Positions 2 through 13,051 of a stretch of DNA of 13,051 bases are shown in pieces. Below the pieces are notes generated by a model that saw nothing but the letters and a program-made list of their open reading frames with translations, did no database searches and was not told the origin of the DNA. The stretch comes from Candidatus Cloacimonadota bacterium (GTDB lineage: Bacteria; Cloacimonadota; Cloacimonadia; Cloacimonadales; TCS61). Within the stretch, counting starts at the first letter, position 1. Each line of letters starts with the position of its first letter. The stretch covers positions 1 through 13,051 of the forward strand of contig JASUTE010000032.1 of assembly GCA_030445745.1 (NCBI GenBank), read 5' to 3'. Position numbers and translations under genes: made by a program.

Positions 2-1048
2 ATTACTGGAGCTGCGGGCTTTATAGGTTATCACTTAGTAAAAAAACTTCAGCAGAATGAAGAAAACAAAGTTGTTGGTCTGGATAACATAAACGATTAT
101 TATGATCTGCGTGTAAAATACGGACGATTAGATGATTGTGGAATTCATCTGCAAAATATCAAGCATAATGATTTGGTGCAAAGTACCCGATATCCAAATT
201 ATAATTTCATCAAATTAGATATCTCCGACCAGAAGCATCTTTATAAATTATTTGCTACAGAAAAATTTGATGTGGTAGTAAATCTGGCGGCTCAAGCGGG
301 AGTTCGTTACAGCATTACCAATCCGGATGCATATCTGCAAAGTAATATCATCGGTTTTTATAATATTCTGGAAGCTTCTCGTCAGCACAAGATAAAGCAT
401 CTGGTTTTTGCTTCCAGTTCCAGTGTTTATGGATGGAATGAAAAATTGCCCTTTTCTACTTCTGACAATGTAGATCATCCAATCAGTCTATATGCAGCCA
501 GTAAAAAATCAAATGAACTTTTGGCTCATTGCTATAGTGCTCTTTATAATATTCCTTCCACTGGATTACGTTTTTTTACTGTTTATGGTCCTTGGGGCAG
601 GCCAGATATGGCATTATTTTTATTCGCAAAAAATATTATTGAAGGAAAACCAATTGATGTTTATAATTACGGGAATATGTTGAGAGATTTTACTTATATA
701 GATGATATTGTGGAAGGGATTCATCGTGTTATCCAAAACCCACCTCAAGGTAACAGCAAGTGGGATGGCAAAAATCCCGATCCCGGCAGTTCCAAAGCAC
801 CTTATAAAATCTATAATATTGGAAATGATGATCCGGTAAGGTTATTGGATTTCATAGAATCAATAGAAAAGAAATTGAATAAAAAAGCAATAAAAAATAT
901 GATGCCCATGCAACCTGGCGATGTGCCAGCTTCACATGCCGATGTAACTGACTTGATCGCAGATATGGGCTATAAACCCGAAACTCCAATCCAGGAAGGA
1001 ATTAATCGGTTTATTGATTGGTATTTGGAGTTCTACGGTAAACGGTAA
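2..1048 (+). CDS. UDP-glucuronate 4-epimerase (NAD-dependent SDR family), 5' end cut off
   Basis: Interconverts UDP-glucuronate and UDP-galacturonate in the cytoplasm, feeding acidic surface glycans (LspL/CapI-type extended short-chain dehydrogenase). The frame is open from base 2; only the first few residues, normally ending in the strand before TGAAGFIG, are missing. In the visible 348 residues I see the NAD-binding GxxGxxG (3-9), AGVRYS (99-104), the SSSSVYG strand (138-144), the catalytic YAASK with Tyr164 and Lys168, and GPWGRPDMA (196-204), which is characteristic of the glucuronate epimerases. An internal TTG at 173 is not the start. The last codons, Gly-Lys-Arg-stop, are written by the heptad array that begins at 1035, so the native C-terminus may have been replaced. 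Family is certain; exact substrate is inferred. Confidence 0.92.
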   Translation: MTGAAGFIGYHLVKKLQQNEENKVVGLDNINDYYDLRVKYGRLDDCGIHLQNIKHNDLVQSTRYPNYNFIKLDISDQKHLYKLFATEKFDVVVNLAAQAGVRYSITNPDAYLQSNIIGFYNILEASRQHKIKHLVFASSSSVYGWNEKLPFSTSDNVDHPISLYAASKKSNELLAHCYSALYNIPSTGLRFFTVYGPWGRPDMALFLFAKNIIEGKPIDVYNYGNMLRDFTYIDDIVEGIHRVIQNPPQGNSKWDGKNPDPGSSKAPYKIYNIGNDDPVRLLDFIESIEKKLNKKAIKNMMPMQPGDVPASHADVTDLIADMGYKPETPIQEGINRFIDWYLEFYGKR

Positions 1049-1092
1049 ACGGTAAACGGTAGACTGTAGACGGAATACTGTAGGTAGAAGAA
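1035..1092 (+). repeat. Heptad array, left arm of S23 element 1 (unit ACGGTAA)
   Basis: Tandem 7-base units in strict register: ACGGTAA, ACGGTAA, ACGGTAG, ACTGTAG, ACGGAAT, ACTGTAG, then decaying into GTAGAAG. It overlaps the stop codon of the upstream epimerase. The units are the reverse complement of those downstream of the S23 gene (TTACCGT, CTTCCGT), so the two arrays are inverted arms around the gene. Confidence 0.85.
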
Positions 1093-1116
1093 AGAAACAG
1101 GAGTTAGGAGAATTTA

Positions 1117-1458
1117 ATGGCAACAAAGAGTTTTAAAGAAATTGAAGCTTGGCAATTGGCTCATCAATTTGTTTTGCAAGTATATGACTTAACGAATAAT
1201 TTTCCGAAAGAAGAAATATTTGGTCTTACTTCGCAGTTTAAGAGAGCAGCAGTTTCTATAGCTGCAAACATCTGTGAAGGGTATAAAAAAATTGGTAAAA
1301 AAGATAAAGTCAGGTTCTATAATATTTCTCAAGGGTCTATCGAAGAGTGCCGTTATTATCTTCTCTTGTCTAAAGATTTAGATTATGGTTACCCTCTTGG
1401 AATGGAAGATTTATTAGATCAATGCAGTCGAAAATTATTTGGATATGTAAATCAATAA
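1117..1458 (+). CDS. Four-helix-bundle protein, S23/TIGR02436 family (copy 1)
   Basis: A 113-residue member of the S23 family, first known from proteins encoded in intervening sequences of bacterial 23S rRNA and related to the Avd accessory protein of diversity-generating retroelements. These are small basic bundles thought to bind nucleic acid; their role outside rRNA is unknown. The family core is clear: KEIEAWQLA near the start, then LTSQFKRAAVSIAANICEGY (37-56) and the ISQGSIEECRYYLLLS helix. ATG follows AGGAG (1106-1110) by 6 bases. It matches copy 5 (7380) at 90 of 111 aligned residues. One missing A in the GTAAATC stretch near 1449, compared with copy 5, shifts the end to YVNQ-stop and loses the SIKENRNY tail, so this copy is slightly truncated. 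Confidence 0.93.
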   Translation: MATKSFKEIEAWQLAHQFVLQVYDLTNNFPKEEIFGLTSQFKRAAVSIAANICEGYKKIGKKDKVRFYNISQGSIEECRYYLLLSKDLDYGYPLGMEDLLDQCSRKLFGYVNQ

Positions 1459-1486
1459 AGAAAAATAGGAATTACTGATCTATGCT

Positions 1487-1626
1487 ATTCCATCTACCGT
1501 CTCCCGTCTCCTGTCTTCCGCATTCTTTTTCCTGTCTTCCGTCTCCCATATTCAGTTTACCGTCTTCCGTATTCCGTATTCTGTATTCTCCAAACCCTAA
1601 TCCCCAAACCCTACACCTTACCTCCC
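1487..1626 (+). repeat. Heptad array, right arm of S23 element 1 (unit NTNCCGT)
   Basis: Twenty consecutive 7-base units in perfect register: ATTCCAT, CTACCGT, CTCCCGT, CTCCTGT, CTTCCGC and so on, with TTACCGT, CTTCCGT and ATTCCGT in the middle and AAACCCT-type units at the end. The strand is pyrimidine-rich. It fills the gap between the S23 gene and the deacetylase-like gene. An open frame through it (1482-1718) is only the array read as a 7-residue repeat. Arms left and right are mutually complementary. Confidence 0.88.
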
Positions 1627-3830: not shown

Positions 3831-3950
3831 ATGGATTTCACTCTAACCCTCTACCAACAATTATTAGGAGCACTACAGAAGCAAAATTACCAGTTTCTAA
3901 CAGTCTAAGAGTTTACGAAGAGGCGATTTGGCGATTTGGTGAAGATGAGA
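3831..3950 (+). pseudogene. Deacetylase N-terminal remnant 1
   Basis: Reads MDFTLTLYQQLLGALQKQ followed by NYQFLTV, an in-frame TAA (3906-3908) where the relatives have Glu, and then EF before passing into GCGATTTG repeats. It matches the first 28 residues of the 58-codon remnant at 5816 and, more weakly, the intact deacetylase at 6377 (FTL, Y, LL, FLTVEE shared). The rest of the gene is absent. It lies 3 bases after the stop of the unknown gene, so the original deacetylase probably belonged to that operon. It is directly followed by an S23 fragment. Confidence 0.75.
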
Positions 3951-3952: not shown

Positions 3953-3998
3953 ATGAAGATTAGAACTCATAAGGATTTAGATGTCTATGGAATAAAGC
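3953..3998 (+). pseudogene. S23-family N-terminal fragment (copy 2)
   Basis: ATG and the first residues MKIRTHKDLDVY match the intact copy at 6009 (MKIKTHKDLDVY). After about 14 codons the frame runs into a CGGTATT heptad array and stops at 4016-4018. Everything beyond the first helix is gone. No function expected. Confidence 0.8.
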
Positions 3999-4047
3999 CG
4001 GTATTCAGTATACGGTAATCGGTAGACAGTAAACAGGAGAAGTAAGC
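3999..4047 (+). repeat. Heptad array (unit CGGTANN / CAGTAAA)
   Basis: Seven units in register: CGGTATT, CAGTATA, CGGTAAT, CGGTAGA, CAGTAAA, CAGGAGA, AGTAAGC. Exact reverse complements of its units (TTTACTG) occur in the array at 4157-4219, so the two look like the arms of an element whose S23 gene is now missing from between them. Confidence 0.8.
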
Positions 4048-4063
4048 AGAAATGGGAATTATA

Positions 4064-4147
4064 CACGTAATGCGTTATCAGTGATGAGTGATGGGTAATG
4101 TGTGATGTGTGATGAGTGATGCGTGATGCGTGATGGGTGATGAGAAA
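4064..4147 (+). repeat. Heptad array (unit TGNGTGA)
   Basis: Twelve units in perfect register: CACGTAA, TGCGTTA, TCAGTGA, TGAGTGA, TGGGTAA, TGTGTGA twice, TGAGTGA, TGCGTGA twice, TGGGTGA, TGAGAAA. This is the cleanest array of the window and uses a unit unlike any other here. No clear TCACNCA partner array is found nearby, so its opposite arm may have been lost. Confidence 0.88.
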
Positions 4148-4156
4148 AACAGTTTT

Positions 4157-4219
4157 TTTACTATTTACTGTTCACATTTATCTCTACACAGATTACTGTT
4201 CACGCTTTACGGTCTTACC
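4157..4219 (+). repeat. Heptad array (unit TTTACTG)
   Basis: Nine units in register: TTTACTA, TTTACTG, TTCACAT, TTATCTC, TACACAG, ATTACTG, TTCACGC, TTTACGG, TCTTACC. It is complementary to the array at 3999-4047. It ends 3 bases before the AGGAGG that precedes the split S23 gene, so it may form the leader of that gene. Confidence 0.75.
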
Positions 4220-4385
4220 TGCAGGAGGTTAAGAAATTAAAACACATAAGGATTTGGATGTTTGGAATAAAGCGATAGAGTTCGTTGTAAAGATTTATGC
4301 AATAACAGAGAATTTCCCGAAATCTGAAACATATGGGATATCAAATCAAATCAGAAGAGCTGCAGTTTCAATTCCAAGTAATATT

Positions 4386-4749
4386 TCCTGCCCCGTGGAA
4401 TTTGTTTTTTTATTTATTCAACTGGGACCTGCCCCGCTTGCCGTGTGTAATTTCTTTTTTTATTAGACTATGGTGGAATAAAATGTATTATACATATGTA
4501 TTAAGAAGTGTAAAAGATTCAAATCTTTACATAGGTTTCACTGAGAACTTAGAGAAGAGAATAAAGGAACATAACTCAGGTAAAGTTAAATCAACTAGAT
4601 ATAGAACACCATTTGAATTAGTATATTTTGAAGCATGTAGAAACATTGATGATGCATTACATCGTGAGAAATATTTAAAAACAACTTATGGGCATCGATA
4701 CTTACAGAACCGCTTGAAAAATGATAGATAGTTGTATTTCACAGGGCAA
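4386..4749 (+). mobile_element. GIY-YIG insertion in S23 copy 3, with inverted ends
   Basis: Insertion defined by the two halves of the S23 frame; borders are certain to within about 4 bases. Left end TGCCCCGTGGAATTT (4389-4403) and right end ATTTCACAGGGCA (4736-4748) are imperfect inverted repeats. Inside the left part a second version of the end, TGCCCCGCTTGCCGTGTG with a following poly-T run, makes a near-tandem repeat before the gene. The ends resemble the palindrome inserted in the deacetylase at 6741-6778. Confidence 0.7.
4483..4731 (+). CDS. Small GIY-YIG nuclease-like protein (UPF0213/YhbQ-type), insertion 1
   Basis: An 82-residue single-domain GIY-YIG protein. The signature is YTYVLRS (3-9) and LYIGFT (17-22), followed by EKRIKEHNSGKVKSTRYRTP with the expected Arg, and a Glu-rich last helix ALHREKYLKTT that carries the family's metal-binding Glu. 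Proteins of this size have no separate DNA-recognition domain; related domains cut DNA in UvrC and in group I intron homing nucleases. ATG 4483 is preceded by GGTGGA; a longer frame upstream of it is only the S23 sequence in another frame. The gene sits in the S23 reading frame at the conserved SNI-EGAGR site, in the same orientation. It looks intact, so it could be the agent or a passenger of the insertion. Confidence 0.9.
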   Translation: MYYTYVLRSVKDSNLYIGFTENLEKRIKEHNSGKVKSTRYRTPFELVYFEACRNIDDALHREKYLKTTYGHRYLQNRLKNDR

Positions 4750-5012
4750 GAAGGTGCTGGTAGAAGTTCAGATAAGGAGTTTAATCACTTCCTTTCAATA
4801 TCTCTTGGATCAATAGCTGAAGTCGATACTCAGTTATTAATTAGCATGAGACTAGGATATTTAAATAGTGATGACTATCACATGCTTGGAGTTGGAACTT
4901 ACGAATATTAGAAAAATGGTCATCGGATTGAAAAAGTTCGTACAATCTAAAACACAAAAGTAAGTTTGTATTCTCTCAGATTACAGATTACTAAAAAGAT
5001 TAAAGGAAAATC

Positions 5013-5816
5013 ATGTCAAAATTAATAGTTGAACATAGGAAGATATCAATAAAGGTAATTAATGATGTTGATTACATATCGTTAACAGACATGGTTAGGG
5101 ATATTGAAAACGGCTTAGCTTTAATTGAAAAGTGGTTAAGAAACAAGAATACAATTGAATTTCTGGGGATATGGGAAGAGCTACATAACCCAAGTTTTAA
5201 TTCCACCGAATTCGAGGGAATTAAAAATCAAGCAGGATCAAATCGTTTTGTATTATCCGTAAAACAATGGACTCAAAAAACAAATTGTATAGGTATTGTA
5301 GCAAAAGCCGGCAGATACGGTGGAACATACTCACATAAAGATATAGCTTTTGAGTTTGCGTCATGGATTTCACCTAAATTTAAGATATATTTAATAAAGG
5401 AATATCAGAGATTAAAGGAAGATGAACAGAAGCTGATTGGATGGTCAGCAAAGAGAGAATTATCAAAGATAAATTATAAAATCCATACAGATGCAATAAA
5501 GACTAATCTATTTCCGGCTGAACTCTCCAAATCTCAAATTTGCCATATTTATGCAAGTGAAGCGGATATTTTGAATATGGCTTTATTCGGTAAAACAGCT
5601 CAGGAATGGAGAAATGAACATCCTGTTTTAAAAGGGAATATGAGAAATTATGCTTCTATAAATCAGTTAATATGTTTATCAAATCTTGAGAATATTAATG
5701 CTGTATTTATAAATGAAGGATTATCTCAAGAAGAGAGATTGAAGAAATTGAATCATATAGCAATCCAGCAGATGACAGTTTTAGAAGAAGCTGGTCAAAG
5801 GAAATTGTTAAAATAA
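5013..5816 (+). CDS. KilA-N domain protein
   Basis: A 267-residue protein of the KilA-N class, a DNA-binding domain common in phages and mobile regions. The domain covers about residues 1-135: a beta-rich start (ISIKVINDVDYISLTDMVRD), a helix IEKWLRNKNTIEFLG, and the hallmark RYGGTYSHKDIAFEFASWIS (101-120) followed by PKFKIYLIKEYQRLK. The C-terminal part has LNMALFGKTAQEWRNEHP and a helix with LSQEERLKKLNHIA, the tail usual in chromosomal KilA-N proteins. ATG follows AAAGGA (5002-5007). Its stop overlaps the ATG of the next deacetylase remnant by one base. It lies between a dead S23 gene and that remnant, so it probably arrived as cargo. Cellular role unknown. Confidence 0.9.
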   Translation: MSKLIVEHRKISIKVINDVDYISLTDMVRDIENGLALIEKWLRNKNTIEFLGIWEELHNPSFNSTEFEGIKNQAGSNRFVLSVKQWTQKTNCIGIVAKAGRYGGTYSHKDIAFEFASWISPKFKIYLIKEYQRLKEDEQKLIGWSAKRELSKINYKIHTDAIKTNLFPAELSKSQICHIYASEADILNMALFGKTAQEWRNEHPVLKGNMRNYASINQLICLSNLENINAVFINEGLSQEERLKKLNHIAIQQMTVLEEAGQRKLLK

Positions 5817-5992
5817 TGGATTTCACGTTAACTACCTACCAGCAATTATTAGAAGCACTGATAGAAAATAACTATAGCTTTTTGACAGTCGAAGAGTTTA
5901 CGCAGAGGCGATTTAGCGATTTGGAGAAGGTGATTGAGCGACTGTGCGAAGAGGCGAAAGGCAATTTAGCGACTTGGCGAGAAGGCTATTAG
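5816..5992 (+). pseudogene. Deacetylase N-terminal remnant 2 (58 codons)
   Basis: MDFTLTTYQQLLEALIEN, then NYSFLTVEEF, then residues encoded by a GCGA octad array up to a stop at 5990-5992. It matches remnant 1 (3831) closely and the start of the intact deacetylase at 6377 at 16 of 28 positions. The catalytic HDVD part is absent. Its ATG overlaps the KilA-N stop, so it may still be translated as a short peptide, but it cannot be an enzyme. Confidence 0.75.
5903..5982 (+). repeat. Octad array, left arm of S23 element 4 (unit NNNNGCGA)
   Basis: GCGA (or a one-base variant) recurs mostly every 8 bases: 5908, 5916, 5924, then after a slip 5938, 5946, 5954, 5961, 5969 and 5977. Units include AGAGGCGA and TTTAGCGA. 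Its reverse complement, TCGCNNNN with the same period, is found at 6469-6532 inside the next gene. It starts right after codons for FLTVEEF and ends about 26 bases before the S23 ATG. Confidence 0.75.
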
Positions 5993-6008: not shown

Positions 6009-6380
6009 ATGAAGATAAAAACACATAAAGATTTGGATGTATATAAGTTAGCTTTTAAATCTGCTATGGAAATCTTTAAGCTGTCAAAATCGTTTCCTTC
6101 AGAAGAAAAATATTCCTTAACAGATCAAATAAGGCGGTCTTCTCGGTCTGTTTGCGCTAACCTTGGGGAAGCATTCAGAGCCAGAAGATATGAAAAGAGT
6201 TTTATTTCAAAATTGTCAATTTCAGAATGCGAAGCTGGAGAAACACAAGTTTGGTTAGATTTTGCTCTTTCTTGTGGATATATTGATAAAGAAATCCATG
6301 AAAATCTATTTGATCACTATGACCATATTCTCGCTATGCTTGTTAATATGATAATAAACCCCAAAAACTGGTTATTGTGA
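6009..6380 (+). CDS. Four-helix-bundle protein, S23/TIGR02436 family (copy 4)
   Basis: Intact 123-residue S23 protein of a different subgroup from copies 1 and 5. It opens with MKIKTHKDLDVYKLAFKSAM and carries the core LTDQIRRSSRSVCANLGEAF, the hallmark basic loop RARRYEKSFISKLSISECEAGE and a final helix ending in INPKNWLL. ATG is 8 bases after AGGAAG (5995-6000). Its stop overlaps the GTG start of the deacetylase (GTGA, 6377-6380), so the two are translationally coupled, unusual for a supposed inserted element and possible evidence that the host gene now depends on it for translation. The flanking arrays have period 8 instead of 7. No insertion in its conserved motif, so it shows what copies 3 and 6 looked like before they were split. 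Confidence 0.93.
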   Translation: MKIKTHKDLDVYKLAFKSAMEIFKLSKSFPSEEKYSLTDQIRRSSRSVCANLGEAFRARRYEKSFISKLSISECEAGETQVWLDFALSCGYIDKEIHENLFDHYDHILAMLVNMIINPKNWLL

Positions 6381-7273
6381 AAGATTTCACATTATCAGTA
6401 TACAGAAACCTTCTTCAAACTCTAAAATATAAAGATTATGAGTTCCTTACAGTCGAAGAGTACTTTACTCGCCAAGTCGCCTCTTCGCAGGGACGTTCCC
6501 TCGCCTCTTCGCTTCCTCGCTCCCTCGTTCTTCTCCGTCATGATGTCGATCGCAAACCTGAAAATGCCCTCAGAATGGCAAAACTGGAAGCGGTATTGGG
6601 AGTAAAAGCTACTTACTATTTTCGGACAATACCACAAACGTTGAAGCCGGACATAATTAAGCAAATTGCTGAGTTGGGGCATGAGATAGGATACCACTAC
6701 GAGAATTTGACAACAGCAAATTCACAAATTAAAAATTTAAACCCTGTGAAATATTCTCGTTCCTCGAATTTCACGGGTCAAAAATGTAAAATTAAAAATG
6801 AAGAAGAATATGAAAAAGAACTTTTTGAATTAGCGATAAAGGATTTTGAAAAGAACTTAAATAAACTACGGAAAATTGTTCCTATAAAAAATATCTGTAT
6901 GCATGGTAGCCCCTTGAGTAAATGGGATAGCAGAGATTTGTGGGGAAAGTATAATTACCGAGATTACGGTATTATTTCTGAGCCTTATTTTGATATTGAT
7001 TTTTCCAAAGTGCAGTACATTACCGATGCTGGGCGTTCCTGGAATAATGCAGCAATAAATTTGCGCGATAAAGTGAATTCACCATTCGAAAATAATTTCA
7101 AGCATACAAATAATATTATTAAGGCAGCAGAAAACGGTCAGCTCTCCGAGCAGACAATGTTCAACATCCATCCTGAGCATTGGGCTGCAACTTCACCTGA
7201 ATGGCTGAAGATTTGGACTGTGAGGAAAGTGAAGAATGCGGTGAAGAGGGTAGTTTTGCGAAGAAGGCCGTGA
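6377..7273 (+). CDS. Polysaccharide deacetylase family protein with two repeat-derived inserts
   Basis: A 298-residue NodB-fold protein that probably removes N-acetyl groups from a glycan precursor; no signal peptide, so likely cytoplasmic. Metal-site motif RHDVD (54-58), GHEIGYHYE (101-109) with His102 and His107, ICMHGSPLSKWDSRDLW (173-189) and the late NIHPEHW (263-269) are all present. GTG start overlaps the S23 stop. Residues 31-52 (Ser/Arg/Leu-rich) are the translation of the TCGC octad array at 6469-6532, placed between FLTVEEYF and the catalytic strand. Residues about 121-141 come from a 63-base palindromic insertion. Both keep the frame. The stop codon is the first triplet of the next heptad array. 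Its N-terminal exon-like segment is repeated upstream at 3831 and 5816. Confidence 0.87.
   Translation: MKDFTLSVYRNLLQTLKYKDYEFLTVEEYFTRQVASSQGRSLASSLPRSLVLLRHDVDRKPENALRMAKLEAVLGVKATYYFRTIPQTLKPDIIKQIAELGHEIGYHYENLTTANSQIKNLNPVKYSRSSNFTGQKCKIKNEEEYEKELFELAIKDFEKNLNKLRKIVPIKNICMHGSPLSKWDSRDLWGKYNYRDYGIISEPYFDIDFSKVQYITDAGRSWNNAAINLRDKVNSPFENNFKHTNNIIKAAENGQLSEQTMFNIHPEHWAATSPEWLKIWTVRKVKNAVKRVVLRRRP
6469..6532 (+). repeat. Octad array inside the deacetylase gene, right arm of S23 element 4 (unit TCGCNNNN)
   Basis: Eight consecutive 8-base units in register: TCGCCAAG, TCGCCTCT, TCGCAGGG, ACGTTCCC, TCGCCTCT, TCGCTTCC, TCGCTCCC, TCGTTCTT. It is complementary to the GCGA octads at 5903-5982 (for example GCGAAGAGGCGA against TCGCCTCTTCGC). 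The array is translated as a Ser/Arg/Leu-rich linker. Confidence 0.85.
6726..6799 (+). repeat. REP-like palindrome inserted in frame in the deacetylase gene
   Basis: Hairpin arms ACCCTGTGAAAT (6741-6752) and ATTTCACGGGT (6768-6778) pair completely apart from one bulged T. The hairpin is bordered by perfect 11-base direct repeats AAATTAAAAAT at 6726-6736 and 6789-6799. Counting one direct repeat, the extra DNA is 63 bases, exactly 21 codons. The repeats are AT-rich, so their status as a target-site duplication is inference. Confidence 0.7.
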
Positions 7274-7370
7274 GCGGATGAGAAGTGAGCGTGTGAGAGA
7301 AGAAAGCTCGGTAAACAGAAGACAGAAGACAGAAGACAGAAGGAAGACAGTAGGCGGTAAACAGGAGAAG
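7271..7370 (+). repeat. Heptad arrays, left arm of S23 element 5 (units NTGAGNN then ACAGAAG)
   Basis: Two stretches: TGAGCGG, ATGAGAA, GTGAGCG, TGTGAGA from 7271, then four ACAGAAG units (7315-7342), a 4-base slip, ACAGTAG, GCGGTAA and ACAGGAG. It begins at the deacetylase stop codon. Units are complementary to the CTTCCGT/CTTCTGT-type array after the S23 gene. Confidence 0.8.
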
Positions 7371-7379
7371 TAAGAAGAA

Positions 7380-7742
7380 GTGGGGACAAAGAGTTTTAAA
7401 GAAATTGAAGCCTGGCAATTAGCACATAAAATTGTTTTAGAAGTATATGAGCTAACAAATGATTTCCCGAAAGAAGAAATATATGGCTTAATATCACAAT
7501 TTAGAAGAGCAGCTGTTTCTATCGCTGCAAACATAGCAGAAGGTTATAAAAAAAATGGGATTAAAGATAAAATCAAGTTTTACAATATCTCCCAAGGTTC
7601 TATAGAAGAGTGTAGATACTATATTTTACTATCCAAGGATTTAGGATATGGTTATTCATCTGAAATGGAAGAATTATTAGATAAATGCAGTCGAAAATTA
7701 TTTGGATATGTAAAATCAATAAAGGAAAATAGGAATTACTGA
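7380..7742 (+). CDS. Four-helix-bundle protein, S23/TIGR02436 family (copy 5)
   Basis: Intact 120-residue S23 protein, the closest relative of copy 1 (90 of the first 111 residues identical). It shows KEIEAWQLAHKIVLEVYEL, the core LISQFRRAAVSIAANIAEGY and the ISQGSIEECRYYILLSKDL helix, and ends SIKENRNY, a tail that copy 1 has lost by a one-base deletion. The start is GTG (where copy 1 has ATG); the nearest strong ribosome site is AGGAG at 7363-7367, 12 bases away, with AGAAGAAG nearer. Similarity to copy 1 continues past the stop through AATAGGAATTACTGA and into the first heptads, so the unit moved or was duplicated together with its 3' arm. Confidence 0.92.
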   Translation: MGTKSFKEIEAWQLAHKIVLEVYELTNDFPKEEIYGLISQFRRAAVSIAANIAEGYKKNGIKDKIKFYNISQGSIEECRYYILLSKDLGYGYSSEMEELLDKCSRKLFGYVKSIKENRNY

Positions 7743-7750
7743 GCCATGCT

Positions 7751-7883
7751 ATTCCGTCTACCGTCTCCCGTCTCCTGTCTACCGCCTTCCGTCTTACGCT
7801 TCCTGTCTTCCGTCTTCCGCTTCCCGTCTCCCGTCTTCCGTCTTCCGCTTCCCGTCTCCCGTCTTCTATCCTATCTTTAACTT
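7751..7883 (+). repeat. Heptad array, right arm of S23 element 5, reaching the next start codon
   Basis: Nineteen units in perfect register: ATTCCGT, CTACCGT, CTCCCGT, CTCCTGT, CTACCGC, CTTCCGT and so on to CTTCTAT, CCTATCT, TTAACTT. A four-unit block of 28 bases is exactly duplicated (7807-7834 and 7835-7862), a sign of recent slippage or unequal exchange. The last unit touches the ATG of the sugar transferase gene. Confidence 0.9.
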
Positions 7884-9413: not shown

Positions 9414-9502
9414 CAGAGATCAGAAGGCAGAAGACAGAGATCAGAAGACAGAGGTCAGAGATAAGTGTTTAGGAGTCAGGTCAAGAGTCAGAGGTTAAGA
9501 AG
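9412..9502 (+). repeat. Heptad array, left arm of S23 element 6 (unit NNCAGAG)
   Basis: In register from 9412: AGCAGAG, ATCAGAA, GGCAGAA, GACAGAG, ATCAGAA, GACAGAG, GTCAGAG, then drifting through ATAAGTG and GTCAGGT to TAAGAAG. It starts within the stop codon of the sugar transferase. Complementary to the CTCTGNN-type units at 10183-10217. Confidence 0.82.
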
Positions 9503-9691
9503 CAGGGGACACGGGAGGATAAGATGCAAATTAGATCTGCGAAAGATTTAACTGTCTATCAGAAAGCCTATAAACTTGCTATGGAAATTTATGAGCTTAG
9601 CAGAGATTTTCCCCAAGAAGAAAGATATGCATTAACCAATCAGATAAGAAGGTCTTCTCGGTCAGTCTGCTTAAATTTACGAGAAGCTTGG

Positions 9692-9976
9692 CTTCCAGCT
9701 CGTAGAGTGTATGTATAAAGTATATGCAATTGAAAGTGAAAATACTGGCAGAATTTATATTGGACAAACTAATAATATCCAGAAGAGATTGAAAATGCAC
9801 AATATGGGCTATGTAAAATCAACTTACAAAGATATGCCTTGGCATTTGTTGGCAATTGAATCGTTTGATACAAGAAATGAAGCAAGATGGCGTGAAAGAC
9901 AATTAAAAAAATCAAAAGGAATTAGAATGAAGTGGCTCGCTCATTTTAAAGTATAAAGTGCTTACAGCTCGGAGAG
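9692..9976 (+). mobile_element. GIY-YIG insertion in S23 copy 6, with direct-repeat ends
   Basis: Exactly 285 bp (a multiple of three) between codons TGG and GCT. It begins CTTCCAGCTCGTAGAG (9692-9707) and ends CTTACAGCTCGGAGAG (9961-9976), a direct repeat matching at 14 of 16 bases. Keeping one copy in the target would shift the S23 frame, so both copies probably belong to the insert. Confidence 0.8.
9711..9956 (+). CDS. Small GIY-YIG nuclease-like protein, insertion 2
   Basis: An 81-residue single GIY-YIG domain: VYAIES (4-9), IYIGQTNNIQKRLKMHN with YIG and the conserved Arg, and a C-terminal helix RNEARWRERQLKKSKG with the conserved Glu. It is clearly different in sequence from the GIY-YIG protein at 4483, with other spacing and another C-terminus, so it is an independent arrival and not a copy. 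ATG 9711 overlaps the end of the truncated S23 frame; no good ribosome site precedes it, so expression may rely on coupling to S23 translation. The insertion lies four codons further along the S23 motif than insertion 1. Reading frame intact; activity unknown. Confidence 0.9.
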   Translation: MYKVYAIESENTGRIYIGQTNNIQKRLKMHNMGYVKSTYKDMPWHLLAIESFDTRNEARWRERQLKKSKGIRMKWLAHFKV

Positions 9977-10182
9977 GCTAAGCGTTTTTATGAAGCTCAT
10001 TTTATTAGTAAGTTAACAGATTGTGACGGAGAGAATAGCGAAACGAATTCATCACTGGACTTTGCTAAGGATTGTAATTATATTAATAAATCAAAATATA
10101 ATGAATTGATTAAATTAAATAAAGAAATTGGAAAGATGTTAGGTTCAATGATAAATAATCCTCAAAAGTTCTTAGTAAAACG

Positions 10183-10217
10183 ATCTGAGAGCTGACATCT
10201 GCTAACTGACCTCTGGA
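10183..10217 (+). repeat. Heptad array, right arm of S23 element 6 (unit NNCTGNN)
   Basis: Five units in register: ATCTGAG, AGCTGAC, ATCTGCT, AACTGAC, CTCTGGA. They overlap the S23 stop codon and are complementary to the CAGAG/GTCAG units before that gene. Confidence 0.7.
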
Positions 10218-12407: not shown

Positions 12408-12435
12408 TAGTCTCCCTTCGTAAGGGAGAATTAAA
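12408..12435 (+). repeat. Palindromic repeat A, before the DUF559 gene
   Basis: Perfect hairpin TCTCCCTT-CGT-AAGGGAGA (12411-12429) with tail ATTAAA. A second copy at 12888-12915 is identical at 27 of 28 bases. The adjoining AGAGGG is the only candidate ribosome site for the DUF559 gene, so the repeat supplies its leader. Confidence 0.88.
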
Positions 12436-12446
12436 GAGGGTTTACT

Positions 12447-12830
12447 ATGCTTCATTACCGTTCAGACTTGAAACAAAAAGCACGCAACAATAGAAAAAAT
12501 ATGAATAAACCAGAAGCTAAGTTATGGTATGAAGTGCTAAATAAAAAACGACTTGGCTATAAATTTCTCAGACAAAAGCCAATCAAAAATTATATAGTAG
12601 ATTTTTATTGTAATCAACTAAAGTTGGCTATAGAAATTGATGGTATGAGTCACAATAAACAAATGGAATATGATACTCATCGAGAAGATTGTTTAAAGAA
12701 GTTAGGAATTAAGATCTTACATTATTCTAACTGGCAAATCATGAATAATATTGATGGAGTTTGTGAAGACATCATAGAGAATATCGAACAGATAAAGCAA
12801 GAGAAAAACCCCTCTGCTCAGCAAAGCTGA
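12447..12830 (+). CDS. DUF559 domain protein (Vsr/PD-(D/E)XK endonuclease-like)
   Basis: A 127-residue protein of the DUF559 family, related to very-short-patch-repair nucleases. The N-terminus has LKQKARNNRKNMNKPEAKLW with the conserved Glu in PEAKLW; then GYKFLRQKPIKNYIVDFYC with the metal-site Asp, KLAIEIDGMSH with the conserved Glu-Asp-x-x-His, and a C-terminal GIKILHYSNWQIMNNIDGV. These positions fit an intact nuclease core; activity is not proven. ATG follows AGAGGG by 6 bases at the edge of repeat A. The last residues, NPSAQQS, and the TGA are encoded by repeat B, so the natural end has been overwritten or evolved with the repeat. It is separate from the glycan genes and probably selfish cargo. 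Confidence 0.9.
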   Translation: MLHYRSDLKQKARNNRKNMNKPEAKLWYEVLNKKRLGYKFLRQKPIKNYIVDFYCNQLKLAIEIDGMSHNKQMEYDTHREDCLKKLGIKILHYSNWQIMNNIDGVCEDIIENIEQIKQEKNPSAQQS

Positions 12831-12853
12831 GCTTCTCCCCTTAAAAAGGGGAG
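12806..12853 (+). repeat. Palindromic repeat B, overlapping the DUF559 3' end
   Basis: Two hairpins side by side: GCTCAGC-AAA-GCTGAGC (12816-12832) and CTCCCCTT-AAA-AAGGGGAG (12835-12853). The second is followed by an A-run, not a T-run, so it is not a standard terminator for this strand. A second copy, cut by the window end, begins at 13015 and differs at 2 of 37 bases. Confidence 0.88.
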
Positions 12854-12887
12854 CAAAAAAAACTATAAAAAATGTTAATCGCAAATT

Positions 12888-13051
12888 CAGTCTCCCTTCG
12901 TAAGGGAGAATTAAATTTATCCTGTGAAATTAAGTTTACTTAGCATTTCTATAGGAGAGGGTTTTCTTCATTACTAAAACACTAAGAAACATTAGCAAAT
13001 TGCAGTTTAATTGTAAACCCCTCTGCTCAGCAGGGCTGAGCTTCTCCCCTT
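12888..13051 (+). mobile_element. Deletion derivative of the A/DUF559/B unit (runs off the window)
   Basis: Repeat A again (12888-12915), then GAGAGGGTTTTCTTCATTAC (12955-12974), which matches the DUF559 start region, then about 40 bases of unrelated AT-rich sequence and repeat B again from 13015. The nuclease body is gone. A half palindrome ATCCTGTGAAATTA (12919-12932), similar to the arm inserted in the deacetylase, lies after repeat A. Confidence 0.7.

Follow-up and report, generated by a model that had tools for sequence, protein, structure and literature searches.

In the intervening sequence (IVS) of the 23S rRNA gene of Coxiella burnetii, three GACAGAT heptamers stand just upstream of the S23p gene, and the segment forms a 28-bp inverted-repeat stem and is excised by RNase III (PMC4990558); rRNA insertions of CPR bacteria also encode an S23 domain in some cases (PMC11270868). 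Heptad repeats are represented in Xanthomonas by GGGAATC and in Nostoc by GGGGATT, with many convergent inverted pairs in Xanthomonas (70 in Xcc and 75 in Xac), and that study found no general association of the repeats with mobile elements, S23 being absent from the searched part of the paper (PMC4692102). The TAACTGA repeats of Beggiatoaceae consist of one unit and are mostly direct, with a single indirect repeat reported, and their mobility has been considered (PMC4679880). Among open-licence papers, none was found that describes S23 genes between inverted repeat arrays as a class. Heptads are known in Nostocales as the cyanobacterial STRR repeats and small dispersed repeats, and base-paired heptads occur in the trnL intron; we know of no link of any of them to S23.

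The window, i.e., the whole stretch of DNA analyzed here, is an entire contig of 13,051 nucleotides that belongs to a 2.0-Mb genome and carries a polysaccharide-type gene cluster. Every S23 match of the genome (TIGR02436/PF05635) is confined to this contig, which contains three intact S23 genes, two genes split by GIY-YIG genes, and one extra fragment. The encoded proteins match S23/Avd-type families only: they reach 102, 101 and 111 bits with TIGR02436 (cut-off 24) and 111–118 with Pfam PF05635 (cut-off 33.8), and stay far below the cut-off of the Avd family (23.3 bits at a cut-off of 80). Structures of S23 homologues have been solved (2gsc, which is XCC0516 of Xanthomonas campestris, and 2rld). 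In intact copies S23 is the sole gene between the arms, no transposase, recombinase or nuclease domain being found in the element. The Rfam scan of the window gave no match, and the S23 elements do not lie in a 23S rRNA gene; similarly, no conserved 23S motif was detected in the fetched loci that were scanned.

The S23 genes of the window are placed between inverted arrays of short tandem units with a locus-specific unit (Table 1), as the initial annotation had claimed, and the arrangement proved to be general across phyla (see below). TRF revealed period-7 arrays flanking the copies at 1117, 7380 and 9523 (the split one), and octads near 6009. Around copy 1, the arrays were detected with period 7 at 1035-1073/1083 and with period 7/28 at 1493-1588; reading the right array by eye gave about 14 heptads of the CCGTCTT type (1491-1590) and then about five CAAACCC heptads up to ~1622, which is close to the 20 units counted originally. 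The arms of copy 1 pair as 1024-1111 with 1507-1594 (61 of 87 matches, score 29), and those of the 7380 element as 7298-7375 with 7764-7843 (60 of 77, score 31), such scores being reached by none of 1000 random window pairs in either case. The same plan was recovered with period 8 at 6009 (5923-5957 with 6501-6536, 27 of 35; 5 of 1000 random pairs as high) and, in a weaker form, at the split element (9414-9445 with 10184-10215, 23 of 32; 7 of 1000). In the decayed copy (~4240-4912) arrays are present, and their own pairing is not significant (508 of 1000 random pairs). The distinctness of units between elements is blurred for copies 1117 and 7380, the arms of which match each other almost as well (25–26) as their own partners (29–31); since these two copies are 80% identical and represent one lineage, they are not independent, and the window alone provides about three independent cases.

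Table 1. Coordinates of the S23 elements and their arms in the window, with the basis of each assignment.
Feature	Position	Strand	Description and basis
Left arm, element 1	1035..1083		ACGGTAA-type heptads from the stop codon of the epimerase-like upstream ORF; TRF and pairing
S23 / four-helix bundle gene, copy 1	1117..1458	+	Profile matches
Right arm, element 1	1490..1622		CCGTCTT/CCGTATT-type heptads, then CAAACCC-type; TRF, pairing, extension read by eye
Decayed element	3980..4912	+	Arrays 3980-4144; S23 fragments 4260-4388 and 4747-4887; GIY-YIG gene 4483-4731 between them; TRF and profile matches
Left arm, period-8 element	5923..5985		GCGA-type octads; pairing and sequence
S23 gene, period-8 element	6009..6380	+	Profile matches
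Right arm, period-8 element	6463..6536		In frame within ORF 6377-7273; pairing and ORF list
Left arm, 7380 element	7298..7375		ACAGAAG heptads; TRF and pairing
S23 gene, 7380 element	7380..7742	+	Profile matches
Right arm, 7380 element	7748..7866		TTCCGTC heptads; TRF and pairing
Left arm, split element	9414..9462		CAGAGAT/CAGAAGA heptads from the sugar transferase stop codon; TRF and pairing
S23 gene split by GIY-YIG gene (9711-9956)	9523..10159	+	Profile matches
Right arm, split element	10184..10215		Pairing

Several other features of the contig deserve mention in their own right. Each of the two small GIY-YIG genes (4483-4731 and 9711-9956) splits an S23 gene, and imperfect inverted ends, CCTGCCCCGTGGAAT and ATTTCACAGGGCAAG, are present in the first. 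One deacetylase-like 5' gene fragment occurs in three diverged copies (3831-3905, 5815-5905 and 6377-6462), with GCGA-type octads or an octad arm after every one of them; the third copy runs into a full ORF, the right arm being translated in frame. A DUF559 gene at 12410-12915 lies between two TCTCCCTTCGTAAGGGAGAATTAA repeats together with CTCTGCTCAGCA-type repeats and is perhaps another small mobile unit. Finally, a sugar transferase ending in NIIFKGARSK* directly precedes an S23 element both in the window (9413) and in a genome of another family (L302), and thus its end is an insertion point common to the two genomes.

Beyond the window, S23 loci were sampled from relatives (82 loci; S23 genes were found in 109 of the 147 relatives searched), from 80 named genomes of many phyla, for which the query selected canonical S23 by motif so that divergent S23 are under-represented, and from IMG/VR viral contigs. 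Of 211 S23 genes belonging to many phyla, 82% reached an own-arm score of at least 16, when the terminal 60 nt of each gene were admitted as a possible right arm; the loci share descent, so that these counts are not independent events. The same score was reached by 3.8% of 212 control non-S23 genes located away from S23. Over this set the median own-arm score was 22 and the cross-locus median 10; in the relatives the respective values were 21 and 10, with best periods of the left and right arms 7/7 in 28 loci and 8/8 in 27, and in the named genomes 20 and 10, with 7/7 in 41 and 8/8 in 14. Arm matching in the viral contigs behaved alike, while a single query of the INPHARED phage genomes gave no S23 match. 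Both refuting conditions named in the initial annotation were examined on other genomes, with the outcome that arms of unrelated loci do not match each other and that arrays are about 20-fold less frequent at a distance from S23 genes: 24 period-7/8 arrays were found in ~29 kb within 300 bp of S23 (0.83 per kb) and 13 in ~317 kb beyond 1.5 kb (0.04 per kb). Some of the distant arrays form inverted pairs without S23 (e.g., L040, 649-1154). It may be added that in L043 (4738-5674) and L054 (7369-8167) non-S23 genes are located between inverted arms of period 7 and period 9, possibly representing other cargo.

The S23 gene is under purifying selection and is kept as a protein, the median dN/dS being 0.105 in 20 close pairs and the value between the two window copies 0.118. 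The arm sequence is inherited together with it above about 60–70% protein identity: the cross-locus arm match stays at background below 50% S23 identity, rises from 50–60% and is as high as the own match at about 70% and above, whereas the own match is near 15–20 at all identity levels. Units are therefore passed on with the gene and, in the longer term, give way to new ones in both arms. Coevolution of the arms, as originally proposed, is supported only in part, in the sense that below ~60% S23 identity the unit differs in both arms; within a lineage the unit is inherited, and in the thiC|thiD orthologous set of genus g46 arms paired with their own partners no better than with those of other members, giving no sign of continuous base-by-base compensation. 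The period among 160 clear loci is 7 in 105, 8 in 47, and 6, 9, 12 or 13 in eight, and loci of like period group together on the S23 tree (16 changes, as compared with 33 or more after shuffling). The period was also considered as a deep-rooted trait of the S23 protein and rejected as such, since concordance exceeds chance only from ~55% identity upward, apart from one unexplained excess in the lowest identity bin. An arm length fixed at five units to fit a pentamer was rejected as well, the median being ~6.5–7 units with a spread.

Filled and empty versions of the same junctions, 92–98% identical, were found on cyanobacterial plasmids, and in these the arms and S23 were gained as a single insertion of ~0.44 kb, which makes the S23-arm unit a DNA insertion. 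At site A (~98% identity) the empty version AAAAAGTAATTAACAAATAAATATG, present on plasmids of Nostoc linckia, Microchaete and Aulosira, corresponds in Trichormus variabilis and Scytonema to AAAAAGTAAT, arm-S23-arm and GTAATTAACAAATAAATATG, with a duplication of GTAAT; further plasmids lack the S23 segment in the alignment. At site D (95% identity) the empty version GGTTCTAGGTTATGC of pNsp_c corresponds in pNsp_a of Nostoc ATCC 53789 and in C052 to GGTTCTA, the element and TTCTAGTTATGC, with a duplication of TTCTA. On a sister plasmid the site-D element is missing, and another S23 is located at the next gene along (site E), where the right junction is not flush. Two additional sites in genus g46, which are more diverged, would fit 5-bp duplications. 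A clean 5-bp target duplication is thus observed at two sites only, both on cyanobacterial plasmids with related S23 genes; across 175 loci, where boundaries are fuzzy and insertions mostly old, no signal exceeded that of permuted pairs, apart from 4-mers, which were slightly in excess. Copies with internal deletions but with both arms retained (L271, L272 and L275; G114, G117 and G123) and, in Nostoc C052, a left arm with a leftover S23 fragment were also encountered.

Cyanobacterial plasmids also harbor a non-coding mini-element (L262 at ~690-895, L263, and L268 at 1082-1262) whose TCAGAAT/TCAGGAG arms are like those of the Nostoc S23 elements and whose internal hairpins have stems differing by matching changes. 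It occurs at 83 places on 42 cyanobacterial plasmids, and its one resolved insertion, within an S23 gene, gave a duplication of 0–1 bp. The mini-element was for this reason rejected as a simple S23 MITE; with like arms and a different duplication, it indicates that the arms alone do not fix the chemistry.

The orientation of the S23 genes bears on another reading, according to which the element would act in RNA as an mRNA counterpart of the 23S rRNA IVS: the arm stem in the operon transcript would be cut by RNase III, S23 would be released or would bind the stem, and the arms would be retained because they spare the neighboring genes any damage from the insertion. Among S23 genes located between co-directional genes in the relatives and the named genomes, 134 are sense and one is antisense. 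The left arm starts at a median of 1 nt from the upstream stop codon (at most 12 nt in 62%), an abutment which insertion into short operon spacers may produce without targeting. The predicted RNA stems of two window elements fold better than shuffled sequences (z −3.0 and −3.4), and the Coxiella IVS, which has heptamers in front of S23p, forms a stem from inverted repeats and is excised by RNase III (PMC4990558), offers a precedent and bears out the link to such IVSs drawn at the outset. A sense-strand excess of G-U over A-C arm mismatches, looked for as a mark of RNA-level selection, is however absent (221 vs 286; in a second count 195 vs 294, with 766:909 when the register was shifted by one unit), which favors maintenance of the arms at the DNA level and leaves the proposal that S23 binds its own stem as RNA unsupported so far. 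Antisense copies with good arms exist, too (L249 and the IMG/VR contigs): in the viral contigs (L099–L133) S23 is mostly antisense to its neighbors, 14 to 1, and at two of the eight plasmid loci it is antisense. The sense orientation keeps the RNA-level reading alive, and we regard this reading as rather unlikely, though still deserving attention.

Recurrent occupation of one junction could suggest instead that a resident array is re-used and that S23 genes are swapped by recombination or annealing of similar arms. Three unrelated S23 lineages (34–49% identical), each with its own unit, occur at the M18 aminopeptidase | DUF1015 junction in genus g27, the junction being empty in a sister species, and three unrelated S23 genes (26–35%) at a second junction in genus g46; related S23 genes (67–70%), in turn, are found at different junctions. 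Moreover, at the junction in genus g27, the left arm of G058 consists of another element's unit and then its own in the same 8-bp register, and scores 61 against the right arm of that other element. Nevertheless, the arms are inverted and not direct, so that a simple exchange would invert rather than insert, and no array is present at sites A and D in their empty state, which makes the swapping of cassettes improbable. As heptamers are described as the most frequent 5–11-nt repeats of most prokaryotes, with slippage put forward as a mechanism (PMC4679880), the arrays could also be ordinary slippage-prone minisatellites untied to S23, the arms arising by coincidence or hitch-hiking. Such an origin, which we hold to be highly improbable, is already contradicted by the control-gene and empty-site results, i.e., by the gap between 82% and 3.8%, and by the gain of arrays together with S23; the match of arms to their own partner and the equal period on both sides speak against it as well.

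Taken together, these data lead us to consider it probable that the S23 gene and its two arms constitute a minimal mobile element of ~0.4–0.6 kb, the ends of which are element-specific repeat arrays. These ends are inverted repeats of degenerate tandem 7- or 8-bp units, which allows the arms to pair in several registers. Presumably they are recognized by shape, as a hairpin or cruciform, rather than by sequence, and for that reason the unit would be free to change if both arms change. In its most likely role, S23, a pentameric four-helix bundle related to Avd of DGRs, would bind the paired or single-stranded ends, a candidate function being guidance of strand transfer carried out by a separate enzyme. 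The element would persist by inserting at narrow junctions between genes, where S23 would be expressed from the host transcript. The initial impression of a new-looking element type is supported; as for a new class proper, defined by one non-catalytic four-helix bundle gene, private 7/8-bp inverted arrays changing together, recognition by structure, preference for gene junctions and occurrence in many phyla, we put it forward tentatively, as possible but doubtful. S23 genes are abundant and yet named only by a domain or an rRNA-derived label, and the arms and precise insertions give the family a natural history. Some of the heptad repeats known from Xanthomonas, Nostoc and other bacteria may be explained by such elements as well, and how an element keeps its two arms alike without a conserved sequence becomes testable.

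Compared with known systems, the S23 elements share terminal inverted repeats with classical DNA transposons and IS elements, although these repeats are element-specific arrays and no transposase is encoded as it is there. The target duplication is 5 bp at two clean sites, with no general signal over 175 loci. As regards MITEs, which are non-coding derivatives moved by a related full element, internally deleted S23 copies occur in place, and the mini-element with like arms at 83 plasmid places shows a 0–1 bp duplication at its one resolved site. The Avd protein of DGRs belongs to the same four-helix bundle superfamily as the window S23, which differs by its score (23.3 bits against the cut-off of 80) and by the lack of a reverse transcriptase among the window proteins scanned. 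Intergenic heptad arrays are shared with the Beggiatoaceae, where TAACTGA repeats are nearly all direct (PMC4679880), and 7-bp tandem units, arranged as inverted pairs in Xanthomonas, with the repeats of Xanthomonas and Nostoc (PMC4692102), unlike which the S23 arrays are tied to a gene, comprise many units and also occur with period 8. With the 23S rRNA IVS of Coxiella burnetii they have in common an S23-family ORF between complementary ends and upstream tandem heptamers (PMC4990558), and the ends are able to form a stem in both. The IVS is located in rRNA, whereas the S23 elements lie between protein-coding genes, both of their arms are repeat arrays whose unit and period vary between elements, and their S23 is under purifying selection, while the ORF of Coxiella has been reported as decaying and probably unexpressed.
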